20,099 nt of DNA. It comes from a virus. The number at the start of each line of letters is the position of its first letter. The first letter of the stretch is position 1. Both the position numbers and the translations under genes were made by a program. Where the stretch lies: positions 1 to 20,099 of IMG/VR virus record IMGVR_UViG_3300036861_000878. One strand, written 5' to 3'. Under the pieces are notes generated by a model that was not told the origin of the DNA, did not search any database, and was given only the letters and a program-made list of their open reading frames with translations. Of the stretch, positions 2,746 to 19,495 are shown piece after piece.

Positions 2746-3765
2746 TTAGATCTGGCCGCTGACGGCGTACCCCGTGACCAGGGTCATCGATGCCGGCTTG
2801 ACGCAGATCGCCTCGAGCACGGCCACAAGCGCCCCGATGTATCCAAGCTGGAAGTTCGGCAGGGTCGAGGCGAACCCGGTGAAGGCGAAGGCCGCCGCCT
2901 CGTGGATGTAGAAGGAGAAGTAGCGCGTATTGAAGAGCAGGAGGTTCCCCTGCGGGCACTTGGGGTCGAGATAGATCGGCACGCCCGCAACCATGAGCGC
3001 CGTAAAGGCCGCGCGGATGCCGCCGACCTGGTTATCGAAGCCGGTGCCGGGCGTGACGCGGTACTGCTCATTGGAGACGAAGTCCTCGGCCAGGAGCACC
3101 CAGGTTGCCGGGTGCATGACGCCGATGTTGGGCATGTCGCCGCCGTTGAAGTTCATCGCGGAGACGATCATCTCGAGCACGCTGGCCCGGGTCGGCGTGG
3201 GCGCGCCCGACTTGGCCTTCACGTTCGCGTTCCACCAGGTATTGACGGTGGCCGACCGCGGGATGTTGCCATACGTCCCGGTGTTGCCGGCGATCAGCGG
3301 GAAGCCGTCGATGTTGATGCTGCCGTAGGTGCCATTGGTCCACAACTGCGTCGAGAGGTAGTCGGCGACCTGGTTGCCCGCGTCGTTCATGCGGGCCTCG
3401 ATCAGCGGGACCACGGCCGCGTTAAGCTGGACCAGGCCCTCCATCCCGAGGAACGGGATCGGGACCACGACGGCCTTGAGGTTGAAGTCGGCCTCGGTGA
3501 TGCCGGTCAGCGCCGCGGGCTGCTGGAAGGCGCCCGAGTAGTCCGTCGCCTGGGCCTGGACGAAGGGCGTGCCCTGGACCGGGACGGTGACGGAGGACAC
3601 TCCGCCTGACGCGGTCTGAGCATTGGCGAGCCCGGCCGAGAGAACCGGCGTCGCCGTGTAGAACTGCACGACGGCCTTCGGAATGAAGGCGCGGCGCGTG
3701 ACGGCGGTCAACTCCGTCCCGACCGCCCCCGATGGGATGATGCCTTGACCCAGAACCGCTGGCAT
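2746..3765 (-). CDS. Major capsid protein
   Basis: The product has 339 residues and no signal peptide. Sequence features fit an HK97-fold coat protein: an N-terminal arm (VTRRAFIPKAVVQFYTATPV), an extended beta segment (FNLKAVVVPIPFLGMEG, residues 94-110), a long helix at about 118-142 (VVPLIEARMNDAGNQVADYL) expected to be the spine helix, and later domain strands such as MHPATWVLLAEDF and GVPIYLDP. Length, position after a scaffold-like gene and before connector genes, and composition all agree. It starts at the ATG at 3765, three bases after the end of the WaaL/Wzy-type gene. Residues 92-142 are mirrored in a diverged form by the small gene at 13383-13667. Confidence 0.85.
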   Translation of the reverse strand: MPAVLGQGIIPSGAVGTELTAVTRRAFIPKAVVQFYTATPVLSAGLANAQTASGGVSSVTVPVQGTPFVQAQATDYSGAFQQPAALTGITEADFNLKAVVVPIPFLGMEGLVQLNAAVVPLIEARMNDAGNQVADYLSTQLWTNGTYGSINIDGFPLIAGNTGTYGNIPRSATVNTWWNANVKAKSGAPTPTRASVLEMIVSAMNFNGGDMPNIGVMHPATWVLLAEDFVSNEQYRVTPGTGFDNQVGGIRAAFTALMVAGVPIYLDPKCPQGNLLLFNTRYFSFYIHEAAAFAFTGFASTLPNFQLGYIGALVAVLEAICVKPASMTLVTGYAVSGQI

Positions 3766-3768
3766 GGT

Positions 3769-4926
3769 TTAGCCCTCCGTGAGTGCGGGGTGATCGACCC
3801 GAGACGCCGTGCCGAGGCCCACCACGATCAGGCCCACGAGCGCCAGCGGCACGACATGAAGCGGGAAGAACCCAAGCGATGAAGTCCCGAGCGCGGCGAT
3901 CGAGCCGCCCCAGGGCGAGACGGCGAACATCTCGCGGTGCGACCAGAGCCAGAGCGCAAACAGCACGGCGCCCACGAGGCCGGTCTCACAGAGCCACTGG
4001 AGCGGCTCGGAGTGCGCCTCGCGGAAGAATTCCTTGGTCGGGAGAAACTTCTGCTGGAGTTGCTCGAGCGGCACGCGACGAGCCCAGCCGCCCAGGCCCC
4101 AACCGAAGACAGCGTCCGAGTGCCACCAGGTATGAAGCCCAAAACCCCAGATGCCGACGCGCCCAGCGGCGCGGCTCCAGAGCCCAGCGGCGCCCTTGGC
4201 GTAAACCCGCCAGCCGACCGCGAAGCACGCCATGGCCATCACCAGCGCGCCAGTCCAGTTGACCTTTCGGTATCGCACCGCCAGGCCGATCGTGAGCGCG
4301 GCGAGCGCGGTGAACGACTTGCCGGTCCAGACCGCGAAGATCGCGAAGGGCAGGCACCAGAGCGGCATCAGCGGCGCCGTGATGGCGATGTAGCTGCCGG
4401 CGGCATCCACGGTGCCGAGCGTGCCGAGCGGCTGGACGACCGGATTCAGCTTGCCACCGAAGAGCGGGCCCCAGAAGAGGTCATAGCCCGCCAACTGCTG
4501 CAAGACATAGGCGACCTGGAAGGCGCCGAGTGCGGCGAGAATCGCGGAGATCCGGGGCCGCCACGCGGTGGGCGTTCTCCGCATGAGGATCAGCAGCCCC
4601 GCGCCCGCGGTGAAGAGGATCGTATGCGTGGCCTCCATCGTGGCGCCGCGGTAGAAGATCACGACGGCCGCCATGGCAATCACCACCCCGAGCCAGCGGT
4701 CCTGGGTGCCGATCCAGCAGGCGCCGACGCCCAACACGACCAGCCAGAGCACCTGCAAGCCCCAGAAGTCGATGCCAGGCGCCGGATCATACGGCGGCAG
4801 GCCCAGGCCAGGGAAGCGATGGGCGAGCATGGGCCACCACGTCACGAGCGGGGCGAGGATGACGCCAGCGACGGGCAGCATCCAGGCCCGCCGATGAAGC
4901 CGCCGCCAGCGTCGTGACGTGGGCAC
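3769..4926 (-). CDS. O-antigen ligase/polymerase-like (WaaL/Wzy_C) membrane protein
   Basis: The 385-residue product is a multi-pass inner-membrane protein with roughly ten hydrophobic segments. Three features match the WaaL/Wzy_C superfamily, whose members join or polymerise O-antigen units at the periplasmic face: GTLGTVDAAGSYIAITAPL (169-187) resembles the usual GTFGNPN..AAYLAL segment; GRVGIWGFGL ... FGWGLGGW (255-281) resembles R...W..AL....PLFGxGLG; and AHSEPLQWLCETGLVGAV (304-321) is the classic H-x-x-x-LQ-x-x-x-E-x-G-x-x-G motif, with His305 and Arg256 as likely functional residues. The gene sits between an exported beta protein and the capsid gene, 3 bases from the latter. A role in changing host surface polysaccharide is inferred; temperate phage D3 carries a comparable O-antigen polymerase. 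Confidence 0.75.
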   Translation of the reverse strand: MPTSRRWRRLHRRAWMLPVAGVILAPLVTWWPMLAHRFPGLGLPPYDPAPGIDFWGLQVLWLVVLGVGACWIGTQDRWLGVVIAMAAVVIFYRGATMEATHTILFTAGAGLLILMRRTPTAWRPRISAILAALGAFQVAYVLQQLAGYDLFWGPLFGGKLNPVVQPLGTLGTVDAAGSYIAITAPLMPLWCLPFAIFAVWTGKSFTALAALTIGLAVRYRKVNWTGALVMAMACFAVGWRVYAKGAAGLWSRAAGRVGIWGFGLHTWWHSDAVFGWGLGGWARRVPLEQLQQKFLPTKEFFREAHSEPLQWLCETGLVGAVLFALWLWSHREMFAVSPWGGSIAALGTSSLGFFPLHVVPLALVGLIVVGLGTASRVDHPALTEG

Positions 4927-7463: not shown

Positions 7464-7883
7464 GTGGCGGGCTACGGGGCGCTCCATTCGCGGGTCCAGC
7501 GCCGGCGCGGGCAACCGAAACGGTGCGAAGAATGCGGGACGACTGACCCCAAAAAGTCCTACGATTGGGCGAACCTCACTGGGCGGTACGAAGACCCGAG
7601 CGACTATCGGCGGCTCTGCCGATCATGTCACGTCCGGCTTGATCTCAAGTCTCCTCCTCGGCGCGATGCGCCGAACGGCCCACGCACGGAACTATTCAAG
7701 GCCGTTCCGTTCTTGCGATCAGGTGTCGGCTCCGAAATTCAATGCGGGTGCGGCTGCGGACTCGTGATGTTGCAGTTTGATAAAAATGGGCGCGAGCGAA
7801 AATTTGCGAAGGGCCACTATCTTCGATGGATCGCTAACGCCGCTGCGCCTTCTCCAACTTCGCCTTCGCCTCCTGCTCCTTGA
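7464..7883 (+). CDS. HNH-type zinc-binding protein, putative free-standing homing endonuclease
   Basis: The 139-residue product starts at the GTG at 7464; an in-frame ATG is not available nearby. Residues 21-24 (CEEC) and 52-56 (CRSCH) form the paired zinc knuckles of small HNH nucleases, around DWANLTGRYEDPSDYRRL, the usual WAN...Y.D..DY..LC.SCH pattern. Residues 94-121 (CGCGCGLVMLQFDKNGRE, then FAKGHYLR) resemble the CGCG...F.xGHxxR module often attached to such nucleases. The last ~15 residues are Pro/Ser-rich and are read from the antisense of the portal 3' end, which the gene overlaps. It is the only plus-strand gene in the left block, suggesting a mobile insertion. Nuclease activity is inferred from the family. 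Confidence 0.6.
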   Translation: MAGYGALHSRVQRRRGQPKRCEECGTTDPKKSYDWANLTGRYEDPSDYRRLCRSCHVRLDLKSPPRRDAPNGPRTELFKAVPFLRSGVGSEIQCGCGCGLVMLQFDKNGRERKFAKGHYLRWIANAAAPSPTSPSPPAP

Positions 7884-9489
7884 TCTCCATCACGCGCTCG
7901 CCCTGCTTGGCCTGAGCCTCGGCAATCTTCCGGGCCTTGGCCTTGAGCCGCGTGTCCGTCATCGGGAGATCGAGGAACTCGAGGAAGTCCTCCGCGTCGA
8001 TCACCTTCATCTGTTTGGCGAGCGTGGCCTTCTGGAGGAGATGCTGCTGGTAGAGCGGGCTGGCTGAATGCGCCCAGACGCGCGCCACGAAGTCGCCCGG
8101 CATCTGTGAGAGAAGGAACTCCTCACCGTTCGGCTTGCGGAGCGTCGTGTCGTTCACGCGGCGATGCAGCCGCATCATCGAGGTCGCGATCGACTCGAGG
8201 GTATCCTCCACGAGCATCGCGCGGATCATCGTGGGCCCGGCGCCGAGCATGGCCTGCGCCATCGCCTGCTCGCCTGAGCGCACGCCCGCCTCGGTCTGGC
8301 CGACCATGCCCCTCGGGAGCGCGCCCTGCCTGGAGAAGAGCGAGTCGATGTGATCCACCATATAGAGCGGATCGGGCAGCGGCGGCGGGGCCAGCGATGT
8401 CACTTCTGAATTCGGCTGGCTCGAAACGATATTGCCGCCCTTCTTGCGGAACGCCTTGGCCTTCTCGCCGTCGAGCATCGAGAAGTTCTTGAAGAACATC
8501 GGCGGATCGAGTTGAAGCTCGTCGCGCTCGTTCACCTCGGCCAGCTTCATCTCGCGGGCGGCCTGCAAGCTGACGAGATACTCGAGCGGGCAGACGCCCC
8601 AGGCATACCCAGGCGTCGGGTTGAGCGTCAGATTATGGAAGGGATGCTCGCCAGGGTTCAGCGGGTTGAGCGGCTCCCAGATGATCTCCTCGGTGTGGGT
8701 GAAATTGGTCACGACGCGATAGTCCTTCGCGGCGTCGTCTTTCACCCAGAGTTCGGCCAGCCGGACGACCTTGTCGCCCACGCGCGGGCGGGCGTGCGCG
8801 ACGTTGCTCTCGCCCTGCACGTTGCCGATCATGCTGGGCGAGGAGGCCGCGACGAGGAGGCGCTGCATCGTGGGCGGCATCGTCTCCGACATGGACTCGT
8901 AACTAGGAGTGGCGTGCGCTTCGGCCAGGGCCATCAGCCGCTCGCGCCGATCGTCCGGCAGTGGATCGATGAGCCGACGGAAGCGGGCGAGGTCGAGGAC
9001 GTACCAGTGGCAGATCGCCTCCTGGGTGTCCCAGTCGAGTTCCTCGTGGAGCAGGCCCACATCGGATGGAGCCGGCACCATGGTCAGCGCGGCCTCGTTC
9101 TGTGAGACCAGGACTTTGAAGACGACCGTGTCCCAGACGTGCGACCAGGTGACGCCCATGCCGAAGATCAACCCGGCGTCGGAGTCGTGCCAGAGCCGAT
9201 GAAGCTCCTCGCGTGCCACCGCGGCTTCGTCCATCCATTGATCGCCGTAATGCGGCGGCAGCGCGATCCCGAACCGGACGGACTCCGGCGCGTAGAGATA
9301 GGCCGAGGAGTATCCGACGAATTCGTTGAGCTTGTTGTAGAGCGCCCGGTCTCCGCGCTCGCTGCCGGTGAGATACCAGGTCTTCATCCGCTGGTTGCGC
9401 GACCCTCGGTCAGCCCGCGAGATGTCGCACTGCCGGATGAGGTTTCGATAGAGCCGGTCGCGGGCGTCTCGCTCAGTGGGGAGGATCAC
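7834..9489 (-). CDS. Portal protein
   Basis: The 551-residue product has the size and layout of a phage portal, the dodecameric ring at one head vertex through which DNA is packaged. Visible features are an N-terminal helical region (RDRLYRNLIRQCDISRADRG), a clip/stem-like middle with WSHVWDTVVFKVLVSQNEAA and HPFHNLTLNPTPGYAWGVCP, a segment LVSLQAAREMKLAEVNERDE, the phage-portal-like LFSRQGALPRGMVGQTEAGV, and a long charged C-terminal helix (LKAKARKIAEAQAKQGERVM). It begins eight bases after the zinc-ribbon gene and its 3' end is overlapped by the convergent HNH gene. The terminase is not adjacent, which is unusual. No split or frameshift is seen. Confidence 0.75.
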   Translation of the reverse strand: MILPTERDARDRLYRNLIRQCDISRADRGSRNQRMKTWYLTGSERGDRALYNKLNEFVGYSSAYLYAPESVRFGIALPPHYGDQWMDEAAVAREELHRLWHDSDAGLIFGMGVTWSHVWDTVVFKVLVSQNEAALTMVPAPSDVGLLHEELDWDTQEAICHWYVLDLARFRRLIDPLPDDRRERLMALAEAHATPSYESMSETMPPTMQRLLVAASSPSMIGNVQGESNVAHARPRVGDKVVRLAELWVKDDAAKDYRVVTNFTHTEEIIWEPLNPLNPGEHPFHNLTLNPTPGYAWGVCPLEYLVSLQAAREMKLAEVNERDELQLDPPMFFKNFSMLDGEKAKAFRKKGGNIVSSQPNSEVTSLAPPPLPDPLYMVDHIDSLFSRQGALPRGMVGQTEAGVRSGEQAMAQAMLGAGPTMIRAMLVEDTLESIATSMMRLHRRVNDTTLRKPNGEEFLLSQMPGDFVARVWAHSASPLYQQHLLQKATLAKQMKVIDAEDFLEFLDLPMTDTRLKAKARKIAEAQAKQGERVMEIKEQEAKAKLEKAQRR

Positions 9490-12583: not shown

Positions 12584-12983
12584 TTCGATGTTCACGGTGG
12601 TTTACGCCGTCGCGCTCTGTGTCCTGGCGTTCCTGTTTGCGCTGTGGCTCGTCACGCCAGCGCACGCGGTCGAGGCGTCCTTCTACATGACGGCCGAGCG
12701 GTTCACCATGTCCTCGACGCCGAACCCAGAGAAGCTGGCGTATACGGCCGGCGTGATGAACACGCTCCAGATCGCCGGCCGGCTGACGTGTCCTCGAGAC
12801 TTCCCACGAGGGGAAGTGATGGCTCGCGCTGAGGCGCTCATCTGGCGGGCCGAAGGTGAGCAGCCTGGCACCTCGAGGAGGATGTCCGCATCGGGCCCGA
12901 TCATCGGCGCGCTGGGCGAACTCGGCTGCCGGTGGACGCCGCCGCCCAGTGTGGAACCCGAGAGCCAGAAGGTGCCGCTGTGA
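12552..12983 (+). CDS. Exported small protein resembling Rap1a/Tai immunity-type domains
   Basis: The start chosen is ATG 12552, behind ggagaggagg; the longer frame from 12480 lacks this signal. The 143-residue product has a signal anchor or peptide (TVVYAVALCVLAFLFALWLV, then TPAHAV as a likely cleavage site). The mature domain reads FYMTAERF ... AYTAGVMNTLQ ... RLTCPRDFPRGEVM ... SASGPIIGALGELGCRW. The aGv...C.P...g.v...a ... A..l...L...C pattern, with Cys80 and Cys126, resembles the Rap1a/Tai family of periplasmic amidase-immunity proteins. In a phage it could act in the periplasm on cell-wall enzymes, but this is inference; family membership should be tested by profile search. Confidence 0.45.
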   Translation: MKTSAPDPDRDSMFTVVYAVALCVLAFLFALWLVTPAHAVEASFYMTAERFTMSSTPNPEKLAYTAGVMNTLQIAGRLTCPRDFPRGEVMARAEALIWRAEGEQPGTSRRMSASGPIIGALGELGCRWTPPPSVEPESQKVPL

Positions 12984-13168
12984 AGACACCGAAAGAGACC
13001 AGGCCGACGCTGGTCGAAGCCCGGCTTCTCCGGAGGAAACTGGAGATCGCGAGGGCCAAGGCGGAGAAGTGGGATGCGCTTGTAAGCTTGCTCGCTGATG
13101 AGATCCGATCCATCGCTGAGGATGCGGCGGAGGGCGCGGTGGACGACGTGAGGTTAATGGGGACATGA
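12980..13168 (+). CDS. Small helical protein of unknown function
   Basis: The GTG at 12980 overlaps the previous TGA (GTGA). The 62-residue product is a charged helical protein (TLVEARLLRRKLEIARAKAE, then KWDALVSLLADEIRSIAEDA) with heptad-like spacing, probably a short coiled coil. A longer reading from 12932 is not needed. No motif assigns a function. Confidence 0.45.
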   Translation: MKTPKETRPTLVEARLLRRKLEIARAKAEKWDALVSLLADEIRSIAEDAAEGAVDDVRLMGT

Positions 13169-13386
13169 CGACTCGGATTCGCACGATCTATGTGATGCGC
13201 GAGGCCGACAAGGACGGCAGCGCGGCTCCGGCGGCCCACGTCTTCATCGAGACGACGGCGGCCGGCGCGATCGTCTACGGTGTGCGCGCGAGCGCCCGAC
13301 GCCTTGGGCGTGCCAGGGAACTCGCCGAAGCCGAGTTCCAGAAACTCCGGACATTCGCGGAGAAGCAGAAGGAGGCGAAGGCGTGA
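13165..13386 (+). CDS. Small alpha/beta protein of unknown function
   Basis: The 73-residue product starts within the ATGA overlap of the previous gene. It has strand-like segments (TRIRTIYVMREADKDGSAAP, AHVFIETTAAGAIVYGV) and a charged C-terminal helix (LAEAEFQKLRTFAEKQKEAK). There are no cysteines or membrane segments. The next gene, the capsid-derived ORF, starts at the GTGA overlap with its stop. Function unknown. Confidence 0.45.
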   Translation: MTTRIRTIYVMREADKDGSAAPAAHVFIETTAAGAIVYGVRASARRLGRARELAEAEFQKLRTFAEKQKEAKA

Positions 13387-13667
13387 GACTGACGGCCGGA
13401 GAGTTCAATCTGAAAGCGGTTGTGACGCCGATTCCATTCCTGAGTATGGATGGGCGCGTTCAGGTGTCAGACTCCACGCCAACCCCACCACGCGACCGGC
13501 GCCATCGCTGGGAGCGCACCGGCAGCACGAAGCGGCGGCACTCGTGGCGGTGCCGGGCCTGCGGCCGTCGCCGTTGGACGACTCCGATCGTGGCGCTGAT
13601 CGAGTCGCGGATTAATAAGGCCCAGCGACAACTAAGCCGTGCGCTGGAGGCTCAGGTCTGGCGATGA
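13383..13667 (+). CDS. Capsid-derived fragment interrupted by a zinc-knuckle insert
   Basis: This 94-residue ORF starts at a GTG overlapping the previous TGA. Residues 6-27 (GEFNLKAVVTPIPFLSMDG...) match major capsid residues 92-113 at 16 of 22 positions. Residues 69-93 (IVALIESRINKAQRQLSRAL, then EAQVW) match capsid residues 118-142 at 11 of 25 positions, without gaps. Between them, the four capsid residues LNAA are replaced by 41 residues containing HRWERTGSTK and HSWRCRACGRRRW, a basic zinc-knuckle-like patch. In the first block ten of the sixteen identical residues use different codons, so this is an old, diverged copy rather than recent duplication. It is an intact frame in the operon: its stop overlaps the next ATG. 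It might interfere with capsid assembly, or be a recombination relic; both are inference. Confidence 0.6.
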   Translation: MRLTAGEFNLKAVVTPIPFLSMDGRVQVSDSTPTPPRDRRHRWERTGSTKRRHSWRCRACGRRRWTTPIVALIESRINKAQRQLSRALEAQVWR

Positions 13668-14050
13668 CGAAGAAGAACACCGCGCTAAAGGGTCGAAAGC
13701 TGGTGAACTTCGCCAAGGCCATCCTCGAGGCGCAGGGCGCAAAGGTGGAGGTCGCCCAGAATGTCGTCCGCTGGTGGCAGGACAAGGCCACGAAGCGATG
13801 GGTGCCGCGCTCGGTGAAACATGATCTCTTCGGGGTCTGGGACATCCTGGCGATCCACAAGGACGGGGCGCGCGTGTTCTACCAGGTGACGACACTTGAC
13901 AACCTGTCCGGCCGGCGGGAGAAGATCAAGGCGGCCGGCCAGTGGACGGCGTCGGATGCGATCCTCGCCTGGGTGAAGGGCCGGGGGCGACACTTCCGGG
14001 TCTACTACGGGCCGGACTTCGACGAGTCGATCCAGCGGTGGCAACCGTGA
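13664..14050 (+). CDS. Putative PD-(D/E)XK-like nuclease (resolvase-type)
   Basis: The 128-residue product has an N-terminal helix (GRKLVNFAKAILEAQGAKVE) followed by a strand pair with HDLFGVWDILAIHKDGARVF and YQVTT. Asp54 and Asp60 with a following strand carrying Gln74-Val-Thr are reminiscent of the D...(D/E/Q)-x-K core of PD-(D/E)XK nucleases, and the order helix-strand-strand-helix fits; the usual Lys is replaced by Thr, so activity is uncertain. A basic helix (RREKIKAAGQWTASDAIL) follows. It starts at the stop of the capsid-derived ORF and ends in GTGA overlap with the next gene. Resolvase or host-DNA degradation roles are possible. Confidence 0.4.
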   Translation: MTKKNTALKGRKLVNFAKAILEAQGAKVEVAQNVVRWWQDKATKRWVPRSVKHDLFGVWDILAIHKDGARVFYQVTTLDNLSGRREKIKAAGQWTASDAILAWVKGRGRHFRVYYGPDFDESIQRWQP

Positions 14051-14220
14051 GCGATTGGCACTGGTACATGATGGTCACGAATGATCCTCGACGGATCGTC
14101 CGAATCGGGGATGGCGCCGACGACTGCTGCATTGAGATTATCGAGCGACGAGAGGACGGGCTCTGGGAAAGCACGCAGACGGTTCTAACAAAGGGCGAAT
14201 GGTCGATTCTTCGGTCATAA
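14047..14220 (+). CDS. Small protein of unknown function
   Basis: The GTG at 14047 overlaps the previous stop (GTGA). The 57-residue product (MSDWHWYMMVTNDPRRIVRI start) is hydrophilic with a strand-rich centre and a CC pair (DDCCIEIIERREDG). It shows no signal, membrane segment or recognisable motif. A longer frame from 13942 crosses the previous gene and is not used. Confidence 0.4.
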   Translation: MSDWHWYMMVTNDPRRIVRIGDGADDCCIEIIERREDGLWESTQTVLTKGEWSILRS

Positions 14221-16627: not shown

Positions 16628-16866
16628 TTGAGAGCCACGCTGACGCTTATCGGACCATCGTTGCGATCCGCCGCCTTCTTCTAAGCGATGAGGAGATTCC
16701 ACCTGACCTCATGCGTCGCGAGTACCTGCGGACGCTCGATATGTGCGAAGAACTCCTGGTCGGTCTTGACCAAGCGCGGGATGCGTTCGTCGTGTTTCTC
16801 CGGATGGTCAACGAGCGGCGCCGATTGAGGAGTTCACATGAAGATCCTCTCGAATCGAGGCGGTGA
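16624..16866 (+). CDS. Small helical protein of unknown function
   Basis: The ATG at 16624 overlaps the previous stop (ATGA). The 80-residue product (MIESHADAYRTIVAIRRLLL start) is helical, with a hydrophobic repeat (MCEELLVGLDQARDAFVVFL) and an Arg-rich end. It has no signal, membrane or metal motif. Its TGA overlaps the start of a membrane peptide (TGATG). Its position two genes before the terminase large subunit could suit a small terminase subunit, but no DNA-binding motif supports that. Confidence 0.4.
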   Translation: MIESHADAYRTIVAIRRLLLSDEEIPPDLMRREYLRTLDMCEELLVGLDQARDAFVVFLRMVNERRRLRSSHEDPLESRR

Positions 16867-16979
16867 TGCTCAGGAAGGCCATGGAGGACTTCGAGATGAA
16901 ACTGGCCGTGATCGTCATTGCCATCGGCGTCGGCATAGTCATCCTCGCAGCGCTGGTCGTGATAGAGTTGCGTGGATGA
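16866..16979 (+). CDS. Single-pass small membrane peptide before the terminase gene
   Basis: The ATG at 16866 overlaps the previous stop; a second in-frame ATG is at 16881. The 37-residue product is a membrane helix (MKLAVIVIAIGVGIVILAAL) after a short charged N-terminus, with a charged tail. Its TGA overlaps the terminase ATG (ATGA at 16976), so translation is coupled. Function unknown. Confidence 0.45.
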   Translation: MLRKAMEDFEMKLAVIVIAIGVGIVILAALVVIELRG

Positions 16980-18766
16980 TCCGGCTCGACGTTGCGGGCT
17001 TCGAGGAGTTCGGCCGCCAACTCACGATTCCGAGCAAGGACAGCGGACTGGTCCGGCTAGAGCCCTGGGGCACCCAGCGGCACCTGATTCGAGAGATCGA
17101 CGCCGGGCTCGAGCAGGATGTCCACGACTTCGTCGTCCTCAAGGGCGGCCGACAGATCGGCGGGACGACGACCTGTGATGCCCTAAGCCTCTGGTGGTGC
17201 CAGGCGAATCCTGGCATCCAGGGCATGCTCGTCAGCGATGATGACCCGAACCGAGACTATCGCCGCGACGTGATCCTCGAGATGCTCGAGAGCCTGCCTC
17301 GGGACTATCGCCAAGAGGTGCGGTTGAACAACCTCGGTCAACTCGCCTGGCGGAACCGATCGCGGCTGATGTTCGCGGCGGCGGGGCGGAGGTCGGGCGG
17401 CAACCTCGGCCGCTCCCGCGGGGTGAATTACCTCGAGGCCGACGAGGTCGGCTCCTGGCGCAACCAGGAATCTGTCTCGGCGCTCAGGGCGGCGCTGTCA
17501 ACGAAGAACCCCCGCCGGCTCTACGTCTGGAATTCCACCGCCCGCGGCATCGGGACGGTCTTCCACGATATGTGCAAGGTGGCCCAGCGCGCCGTCACGC
17601 AGCGGTTCATCTTCCTGGCCTGGTGGCGGCATGAAGGCTGTCGGATTGAACGGACCCAGGGCGAACTCTGGGATCGCTACTGGCTGGAGCGACCACAGCC
17701 GACCCAGGAGGAGCGGCAGTGGATGAGCGAGGTTCGCCTTCGCTATGAGGTCGAGATCCAACCCGAGCAGCTTGCATGGTATCGGTGGCAACTCGTCGAG
17801 GAGTTCTTCGGAGACGAGGCGATGCTGGCCCAGGAGTTCGGCTGCCTGCCGGAGGACTGCTTCCAGGCATTCGGCGATAAGTTCATCGCGCCGCCCATTC
17901 TCCAGCGGCTCCGGATCGCGCTCGACGCGGCCCCGAGGCCGTCGGGCTACCGTTACGACTGGGGGCCGACCCTTGACGAGAGCCGCGTGATTGCGGATGA
18001 TCCCGACACCGCGCCGCTTGTGATCTGGGAGGAGCCCGATCCTCTGGGGGCCTATGTGGTCTCCGGTCATCCGGCGTGGAGTTCGTCACCGAATGCCGCC
18101 CACTATGTCGCGCAGGTCTGGCGGGTGTGGCCAGACCGGATCGTCCAGGTCGCCGAGTACGCTGCGGATGCTGGAGCCATGTACCAGTTCGCCTGGGTGC
18201 TGCTCCACCTGGCGGGGGCCTACCGGACGCAGCTTCCGACCTACTTCATCCTCGAGGTCGGCGTCACCGGCTATCGCGTGCTCGAGGAGATCCAGCTTCT
18301 CGAGCGCCACGGCTACGGGCTCTCGCTCCGTGGCAAGCAGCAGATCGAGAACCTCATCGGATCGGTGCAACACTATTACTATGTTCGGCCAGATAACATC
18401 TATGCCCGCACGTCTCCGATTGAATGGAAGACGGACCACGACAAGCGGCCATGGATTCTGCACGGCTTGCGGGACACGATCGAGCGCGACCACATCACCA
18501 TCCGCTCGCGAGAACTCATCGACGAGTTGGCGGCGGTGCGCAGAGGCGAGGAAGGGGACAGTGACGTGATCGCGGGCGCCGCCGCGTCGAGTGATGCGCG
18601 AGTGATGACTGCGGCACTAGCCACGGAGTGCTGGATGCGGTCGGCGATGCCGGATCTTCACATGATGGTCGCGCCGAAGGAGGCTGGGCCGGCTGACCCG
18701 ACGAGCGTGCAGCAGCGCCTCGTTCAAAACTATCTGAGTCGGTTGGTCTCTGGGGGGACACCGTGA
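16976..18766 (+). CDS. Terminase large subunit (packaging ATPase/nuclease), atypical catalytic residues
   Basis: The start is ATG 16976, coupled to the preceding stop; the frame is open to 16838 but that part overlaps better genes. The 596-residue product has the two-domain layout of the motor that pumps DNA into the head. The ATPase part has a Walker A-like GGRQIGGTTT (57-66), a Walker B NYLEADEVG with Asp156-Glu157, and YVWNSTARG (183-191) as coupling motif. The nuclease part has YVVSGHPAW (360-368), EYAADAG...QFAWVLLHLAGAYR, ILEVGVTG with Glu427, and ASSDARVMTAALA with Asp540. Canonical enzymes have Lys near Walker A residue 63 (GK) and Asp at the GxDPA position; here Gly63 and His365 stand there. 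Activity could be altered or use displaced residues. It is separated from the portal and inverted. Confidence 0.8.
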   Translation: MIRLDVAGFEEFGRQLTIPSKDSGLVRLEPWGTQRHLIREIDAGLEQDVHDFVVLKGGRQIGGTTTCDALSLWWCQANPGIQGMLVSDDDPNRDYRRDVILEMLESLPRDYRQEVRLNNLGQLAWRNRSRLMFAAAGRRSGGNLGRSRGVNYLEADEVGSWRNQESVSALRAALSTKNPRRLYVWNSTARGIGTVFHDMCKVAQRAVTQRFIFLAWWRHEGCRIERTQGELWDRYWLERPQPTQEERQWMSEVRLRYEVEIQPEQLAWYRWQLVEEFFGDEAMLAQEFGCLPEDCFQAFGDKFIAPPILQRLRIALDAAPRPSGYRYDWGPTLDESRVIADDPDTAPLVIWEEPDPLGAYVVSGHPAWSSSPNAAHYVAQVWRVWPDRIVQVAEYAADAGAMYQFAWVLLHLAGAYRTQLPTYFILEVGVTGYRVLEEIQLLERHGYGLSLRGKQQIENLIGSVQHYYYVRPDNIYARTSPIEWKTDHDKRPWILHGLRDTIERDHITIRSRELIDELAAVRRGEEGDSDVIAGAAASSDARVMTAALATECWMRSAMPDLHMMVAPKEAGPADPTSVQQRLVQNYLSRLVSGGTP

Positions 18767-19183: not shown

Positions 19184-19495
19184 ATGGCCACATCACTCCG
19201 TGTCCGGCTTGCCTCTGAGGCTCCAGCGGGCGCCTGCCGGGTCTTCGATGGCGCTGGAGAGTTGGTGGCGATCATTCATCCCACGACGAGAAAGCGAACG
19301 TGGACCGGACTACGACGCACGCTGACCGGCCACAAGGGCGGCCGACCGAAGAAGATCACGGACAAGCAGATCCTTGACATCCGAGATCGCATCAGGAGAG
19401 GCGAGCGCCTCGCGATCATCGCCAATGAGTTCGGATGCTCGGAGTCGGCGATCTATCGACGGATTCGAGAAGCGAGGAGGAAGGCCAAGAAATGA
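19184..19495 (+). CDS. Recombinase-type helix-turn-helix DNA-binding protein
   Basis: The 103-residue product has a basic middle (RKRTWTGLRRTLTGHKGG) and a C-terminal HTH: GRPKKITDKQILDIRDRIRR, then GERLAIIANEFGCSESAIYR and RIREA. This GRPKKIT..QI..I......G.....IA..FG.S..TIYR pattern is that of the DNA-binding end of Hin/Tn3-type serine recombinases, but no catalytic domain (Ser nucleophile region) is present, so it is likely a regulator or a small-terminase-like DNA-binding protein. Position just after the terminase large subunit is compatible with either. The stop overlaps the next ATG. Confidence 0.6.
   Translation: MATSLRVRLASEAPAGACRVFDGAGELVAIIHPTTRKRTWTGLRRTLTGHKGGRPKKITDKQILDIRDRIRRGERLAIIANEFGCSESAIYRRIREARRKAKK

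Follow-up and report, generated by a model that had tools for sequence, protein, structure and literature searches.

A small phage gene with two capsid-derived blocks around a putative zinc-ribbon insert: a tentative candidate for modulating capsid assembly

The weapons of phage satellites include complete homologues of capsid protein and mimics of scaffolds, and capsid protein is sensed by several defences. Ccm of SaPIbov5 is a satellite-borne capsid homologue of 355 residues with a full-length HK97 fold, which forms pentamers and enters the pentamers of helper capsids; a phage has been suggested as its source, it acts on capsid assembly, and the mutations that escape it lie partly in a patch of the spine helix and P-domain (PMC8569155). 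The satellite proteins CpmB, Rcm, Sid and TcaP, which redirect capsid size, are small, bind capsid protein and alter assembly, acting as scaffolds or mimicking them (PMC5644958, PMC12409344, PMC7552001, PMC10945586). The prophage tail assembly blocker Tab is likewise a small phage protein that halts the assembly of competitors, its targets being tails (PMC10884400). Among the defences, CapRel-SJ46 is triggered by newly made major capsid protein (MCP), its pseudo-zinc-finger being predicted to touch the P-domain beta-sheet and the spine helix, where the escape mutations L114P and I115F are found (PMC9712102). The same paper cites Gol, a T4 capsid peptide, as activating Lit; in both systems segments of the MCP in the working capsid act as triggers (PMC9712102). 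Staphylococcal Thoeris senses capsid hexamers (PMC11312562).

Here we describe a 94-residue ORF from a virus record, found in a window (the whole stretch of DNA that was analysed) of 20,099 bases. Like Ccm, the ORF is a capsid homologue encoded besides a working MCP gene, both lying in the same window, and we liken the two on capture and on the role in assembly proposed below. Unlike Ccm, it consists of about 49 capsid residues plus an inserted domain and is carried by the phage itself. It also differs from CpmB, Rcm, Sid and TcaP in deriving from capsid protein, and from the CapRel-SJ46 and Gol/Lit triggers in being a separate gene. The ORF joins the capsid-derived accessory genes, among which a short, phage-borne fragment with an inserted domain is new. 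The features of the window referred to below are as follows.

1 to 20,099, whole window, virus record
2746 to 3765, minus strand, MCP gene, HK97 fold (PHROG 9953 major head protein, E = 1.1e-23), the family from which the fragment derives
7834 to 9489, minus strand, portal, a head gene
13165 to 13386, plus strand, upstream coupled gene, 73 residues, no family found
13370 to 13375, plus strand, Shine-Dalgarno sequence AGGAGG, 7 nt 5' of the GTG and within the upstream gene
13383 to 13667, plus strand, the chimeric small gene (capsid fragment split by an insert), 94 residues, GTG start, predicted pI 11.9
13392 to 13463, plus strand, block 1, ORF residues 4-27 matching MCP 90-113, E-loop strand, 17 of 24 identical
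13464 to 13586, plus strand, insert, ORF residues 28-68, arginine-rich, with a zinc-ribbon-like core at 38-66
13587 to 13661, plus strand, block 2, ORF residues 69-93 matching MCP 118-142, spine helix, 11 of 25 identical
13664 to 14050, plus strand, downstream coupled gene, 128 residues, nuclease-like by eye, without a confident family
16838 to 18766, plus strand, terminase large subunit gene terL (PHROG 2, E = 3.2e-13), end of the plus-strand gene series

The gap-free, two-block match to the window's own MCP reported in the first-pass annotation was borne out, and the interpretation offered there is supported in part. ORF residues 6-27 share 16 of 22 positions with MCP 92-113, block 2 matches as listed above, and a two-sequence BLASTP over both blocks gives E = 7e-12. 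Block 2 alone has a BLOSUM62 score of 57. No shuffle out of 200,000 reached this value, and when the MCP was compared with the other proteins of the window, the highest score over 1.48 million pairs of 25-mers was 44. Furthermore, an HMM built from the distinct capsid fragments of relatives, with the ORF left out, picks up the two blocks in collinear order, with 33.2 bits for block 1 and 7.9 bits for block 2, so that both blocks have a significant profile match to capsid proteins. Collectively BLASTP, the shuffles and the HMM rule out a chance similarity, and as judged by sequence both blocks are capsid-derived. In every related MCP listed the linker between the blocks is four residues long and none carries an insert there, so the idea that the MCPs of relatives share the insert was rejected. 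Only MCP 89-142 is represented in the ORF, the complete HK97 fold (N-arm, E-loop, spine helix, P-domain and A-domain) being absent. A capsid copy that continues 5' of the GTG in the same frame was ruled out, as the similarity stops there, and no further capsid pieces were found up- or downstream of the ORF, in the window or in related loci. Short capsid matches in three TerL-linked loci (L133, L147 and L162) proved to be MCP genes cut by contig ends.

In order to place the blocks within the capsid fold we used an AlphaFold2 model of the MCP, made from an alignment of 19 capsids, which is of modest confidence (mean pLDDT 63.7) and has strands at 90-94 and 98-103 and a helix at 118-143. A Foldseek search with this model matches HK97-fold capsids, the best being that of cyanophage A-1(L) (E = 4.9e-12). 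On this modelling block 1 is the E-loop strand and block 2 the spine helix of the HK97 fold, the latter in agreement with the original suggestion. The model of the ORF, also of modest confidence (mean pLDDT 66.5), places strands at 43-48, 53-57 and 63-66, ends in a helix spanning 69-93 and renders block 1 poorly. The hydropathy of the block 2 helix follows that of the capsid helix (correlation 0.88, p = 0.018), and its changes cluster opposite the kept hydrophobic face (p = 0.018). Three residues conserved in capsids have been lost from this block (D128K, N131R and D135R). With the loss of conserved residues such as D128 and N131 the helix is, to judge from its sequence, no longer held to capsid rules, and because of these three losses block 2 may no longer fit a capsomer.

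Given the parts kept in the ORF, binding to capsid protein appears the likeliest function. We propose a model in which the plus-strand operon of small genes captured part of a capsid gene (MCP about 89-142) belonging to the same capsid clade as this phage, and a zinc-ribbon-like domain came to occupy the four-residue linker between strand and helix. The ORF protein would be made and would contact capsid subunits, or their binding partners, by means of its retained E-loop strand and of the hydrophobic side of its helix, and so could modulate assembly, either by tuning it for the phage's own capsid or by poisoning it for a related competitor. The putative zinc ribbon may cap and stabilise a fragment that is missing the rest of the capsid fold, or may supply a second binding site. 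The precedent of Ccm, a capsid homologue that enters helper pentamers, supports this reading, and the account we favour, tentatively and at somewhat short of an even chance, is that the captured piece of capsid has kept the ability to bind capsid protein and serves to modulate assembly. We are more doubtful of a stand-alone capsid mimic, composed of the own-capsid fragment and the zinc ribbon, that blocks the assembly of competitors or silences the capsid sensors of the host.

The ORF is intact and coupled at both ends within its operon, as the first-pass annotation had stated, through four-nucleotide overlaps with the upstream gene (GTGA at 13383) and the downstream gene (ATGA at 13664). The sequence AGGAGG occurs ten times between 10300 and 16900, the majority of the copies lying directly 5' of gene starts. 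Translation of the ORF is likely in view of its perfect AGGAGG and the four-base overlaps with both neighbours. The head genes (portal and capsid) are on the minus strand, and the series of small plus-strand genes runs from about 10335 to terL. The description of the ORF as a small, intact and coupled gene stands, but its earlier labelling as 'early-type' is unproven because the plus-strand operon continues into terL. The motif order in the product of the downstream gene recalls, by eye, that of PD-(D/E)XK nucleases; no relatives of this gene were found in viral contigs.

Searches by six-frame translation, profile and peptide pattern found no homologue of the ORF in viral contigs, 84,980 species genomes, phage records or plasmids, and none at the loci of some 90 phages whose capsids are related or in 29 whole related records, some of these searches requiring short exact peptide matches, so that distant relatives may be missed, and many of the records being fragments. 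Phage records held no nucleotide relatives of 12900-14100, and the split capsid arrangement was absent from all the collections searched. The ORF is a singleton within these collections. With no homologue of any kind found, neither homologues that lack the capsid-like blocks nor decaying close relatives came to light.

The strongest of the other explanations is that the ORF is a recombination relic, a scrap of capsid gene from a related phage, possibly captured recently, that is open by chance and is under no selection. Its being a singleton fits this explanation, as does its codon usage: the GC3 of its blocks (0.67) is the lowest among the window genes examined, the others having 0.74-0.92 and the own MCP fragment 1.0. 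Furthermore, the insert codes better in another frame, with a coding score of -7.8 in the ORF frame compared with 0.6 in the +2 frame; these poor coding statistics may come from its arginine content or from a non-coding origin. Over both blocks the closest capsid is the own MCP (28/49), followed by that of L021 (24/49); over block 1 alone these two tie at 17/24 each. The ORF sits on a long branch close to the capsid clade of the window, and the serine of its FLSMDG motif recurs in the capsid of L097 (FNSMEG). The only flanking repeat that might mark an insertion was a single 11-nt pair at chance level.

The pattern of nucleotide change bears on the same question. Ten of the 16 identical residues in ORF 6-27 use codons that differ from those of the MCP, confirming an earlier count. 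Block 1 has 24 nucleotide differences from the own MCP, where about 10 would be expected without selection for the same seven amino-acid changes, and block 2 has 36 compared with about 23 expected (p = 0.00025). For codons that do not vary among the three nearest MCPs, pairwise counts over few codons give nine synonymous and nine nonsynonymous changes, the neutral nonsynonymous/synonymous ratio being 4.3. This excess of synonymous change is consistent with constraint on the ORF protein. Part of it may predate the capture, however, because the low GC3 allows for a donor capsid with other codons, and the synonymous differences could stem from that donor capsid being itself under selection. Hence, of the first-pass view that the copy is old or from a related phage and constrained in its protein, the pattern of change is consistent with the constraint, but an unsampled donor capsid could explain part of it. 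A relic also sits poorly with the perfect Shine-Dalgarno sequence and the overlaps on both sides, with a long branch that has acquired neither stop nor frameshift, and with substitutions that keep the hydropathy of the helix. Phage genomes are compact and tend to shed gene scraps. We consider a relic unlikely.

The insert was originally read as a CRAC knuckle. The replacement of the four-residue linker by 41 residues is confirmed, but on the model the insert looks more like a whole zinc-ribbon-like beta domain than a lone knuckle. In the model its elements follow the zinc-ribbon order (D38xxH41, strand, strand, C57xxC60, strand), with H41, C57 and C60 as putative ligands and either D38 or H53 as the fourth, the full set being uncertain. 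Foldseek gives weak matches to zinc ribbons, including 1k81 and archaeal RNase P (E about 1), and none of these is significant. No Pfam zinc family for the ORF scored above the cut-off, and the search for a known family for the insert gave only weak PHROG and Pfam matches; neither the PDB nor phage records yielded a convincing one.

These features suggest another explanation, in which the ORF is a co-opted zinc-ribbon protein that binds nucleic acid or protein, the capsid pieces having served only as building material from which a tail and a helix were made, and the link to the capsid having gone. The insert and helix are the best-modelled part of the ORF (pLDDT 69-79), though without alignment support, and the weak ribbon matches, the predicted pI and the loss of conserved capsid residues from the helix all point the same way. 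However, all of the fold matches have E > 0.05, the first cysteine pair is represented only by DxxH, and the retention of block 1 at 71% identity, with most of the capsid motif kept, is left unexplained. We judge a co-opted protein less probable still than a relic.

Least probable is a decoy against capsid-sensing immunity, in which the fragment would occupy a host sensor of the spine helix and nearby strands without triggering it: the predicted binding of CapRel to the capsid spine helix and sheet (PMC9712102) makes this plausible, and the ORF holds a segment comparable to the CapRel-SJ46 target, but a sensor-binding fragment could equally trigger the sensor, a host with such defences and expression before the MCP would be needed, and no such capsid-fragment decoy was found in the literature searched.

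If the favoured reading is right, and the captured fragment does bind capsid protein and modulate assembly, the ORF would be a minimal and easily tested capsid mimic made from the E-loop strand and spine helix alone, and would indicate that new small genes can arise from capsid genes. It would also offer a direct tool for finding which capsid surface is read by assembly partners or immune sensors. Were it only a relic, it would still illustrate clearly how a domain can be inserted into a captured piece of a gene.

The portal (minus strand) and terminase (plus strand) genes of the window form a divergent pair some 7 kb apart, unlike those of the relatives L016, L017 and L022, which are collinear. 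The same divergent arrangement of portal and terL is present in L097, where the portal is 51% and the terminase 53% identical and the intervening genes differ. This locus was found by a TerL profile search, an exact TerL peptide scan having matched nothing, and it holds no second capsid piece. A small HNH-like ORF on the plus strand (7464-7883) lies within the minus-strand head cluster; it overlaps the portal gene at its end and has a partial relative in L019. At 19184-19495 the plus strand encodes a small product that carries a helix-turn-helix of the resolvase type (HTH_7, E = 6.6e-6, above cut-off). Directly adjoining the MCP gene within the head cluster, at 3769-4926 on the minus strand, is a gene whose membrane-protein product resembles Wzy_C or O-antigen ligases (Pfam, E = 8.9e-11, above cut-off), and several related phages (L020, L004, L022 and L018) have counterparts 45-55% identical to it in the same position beside their capsid genes.
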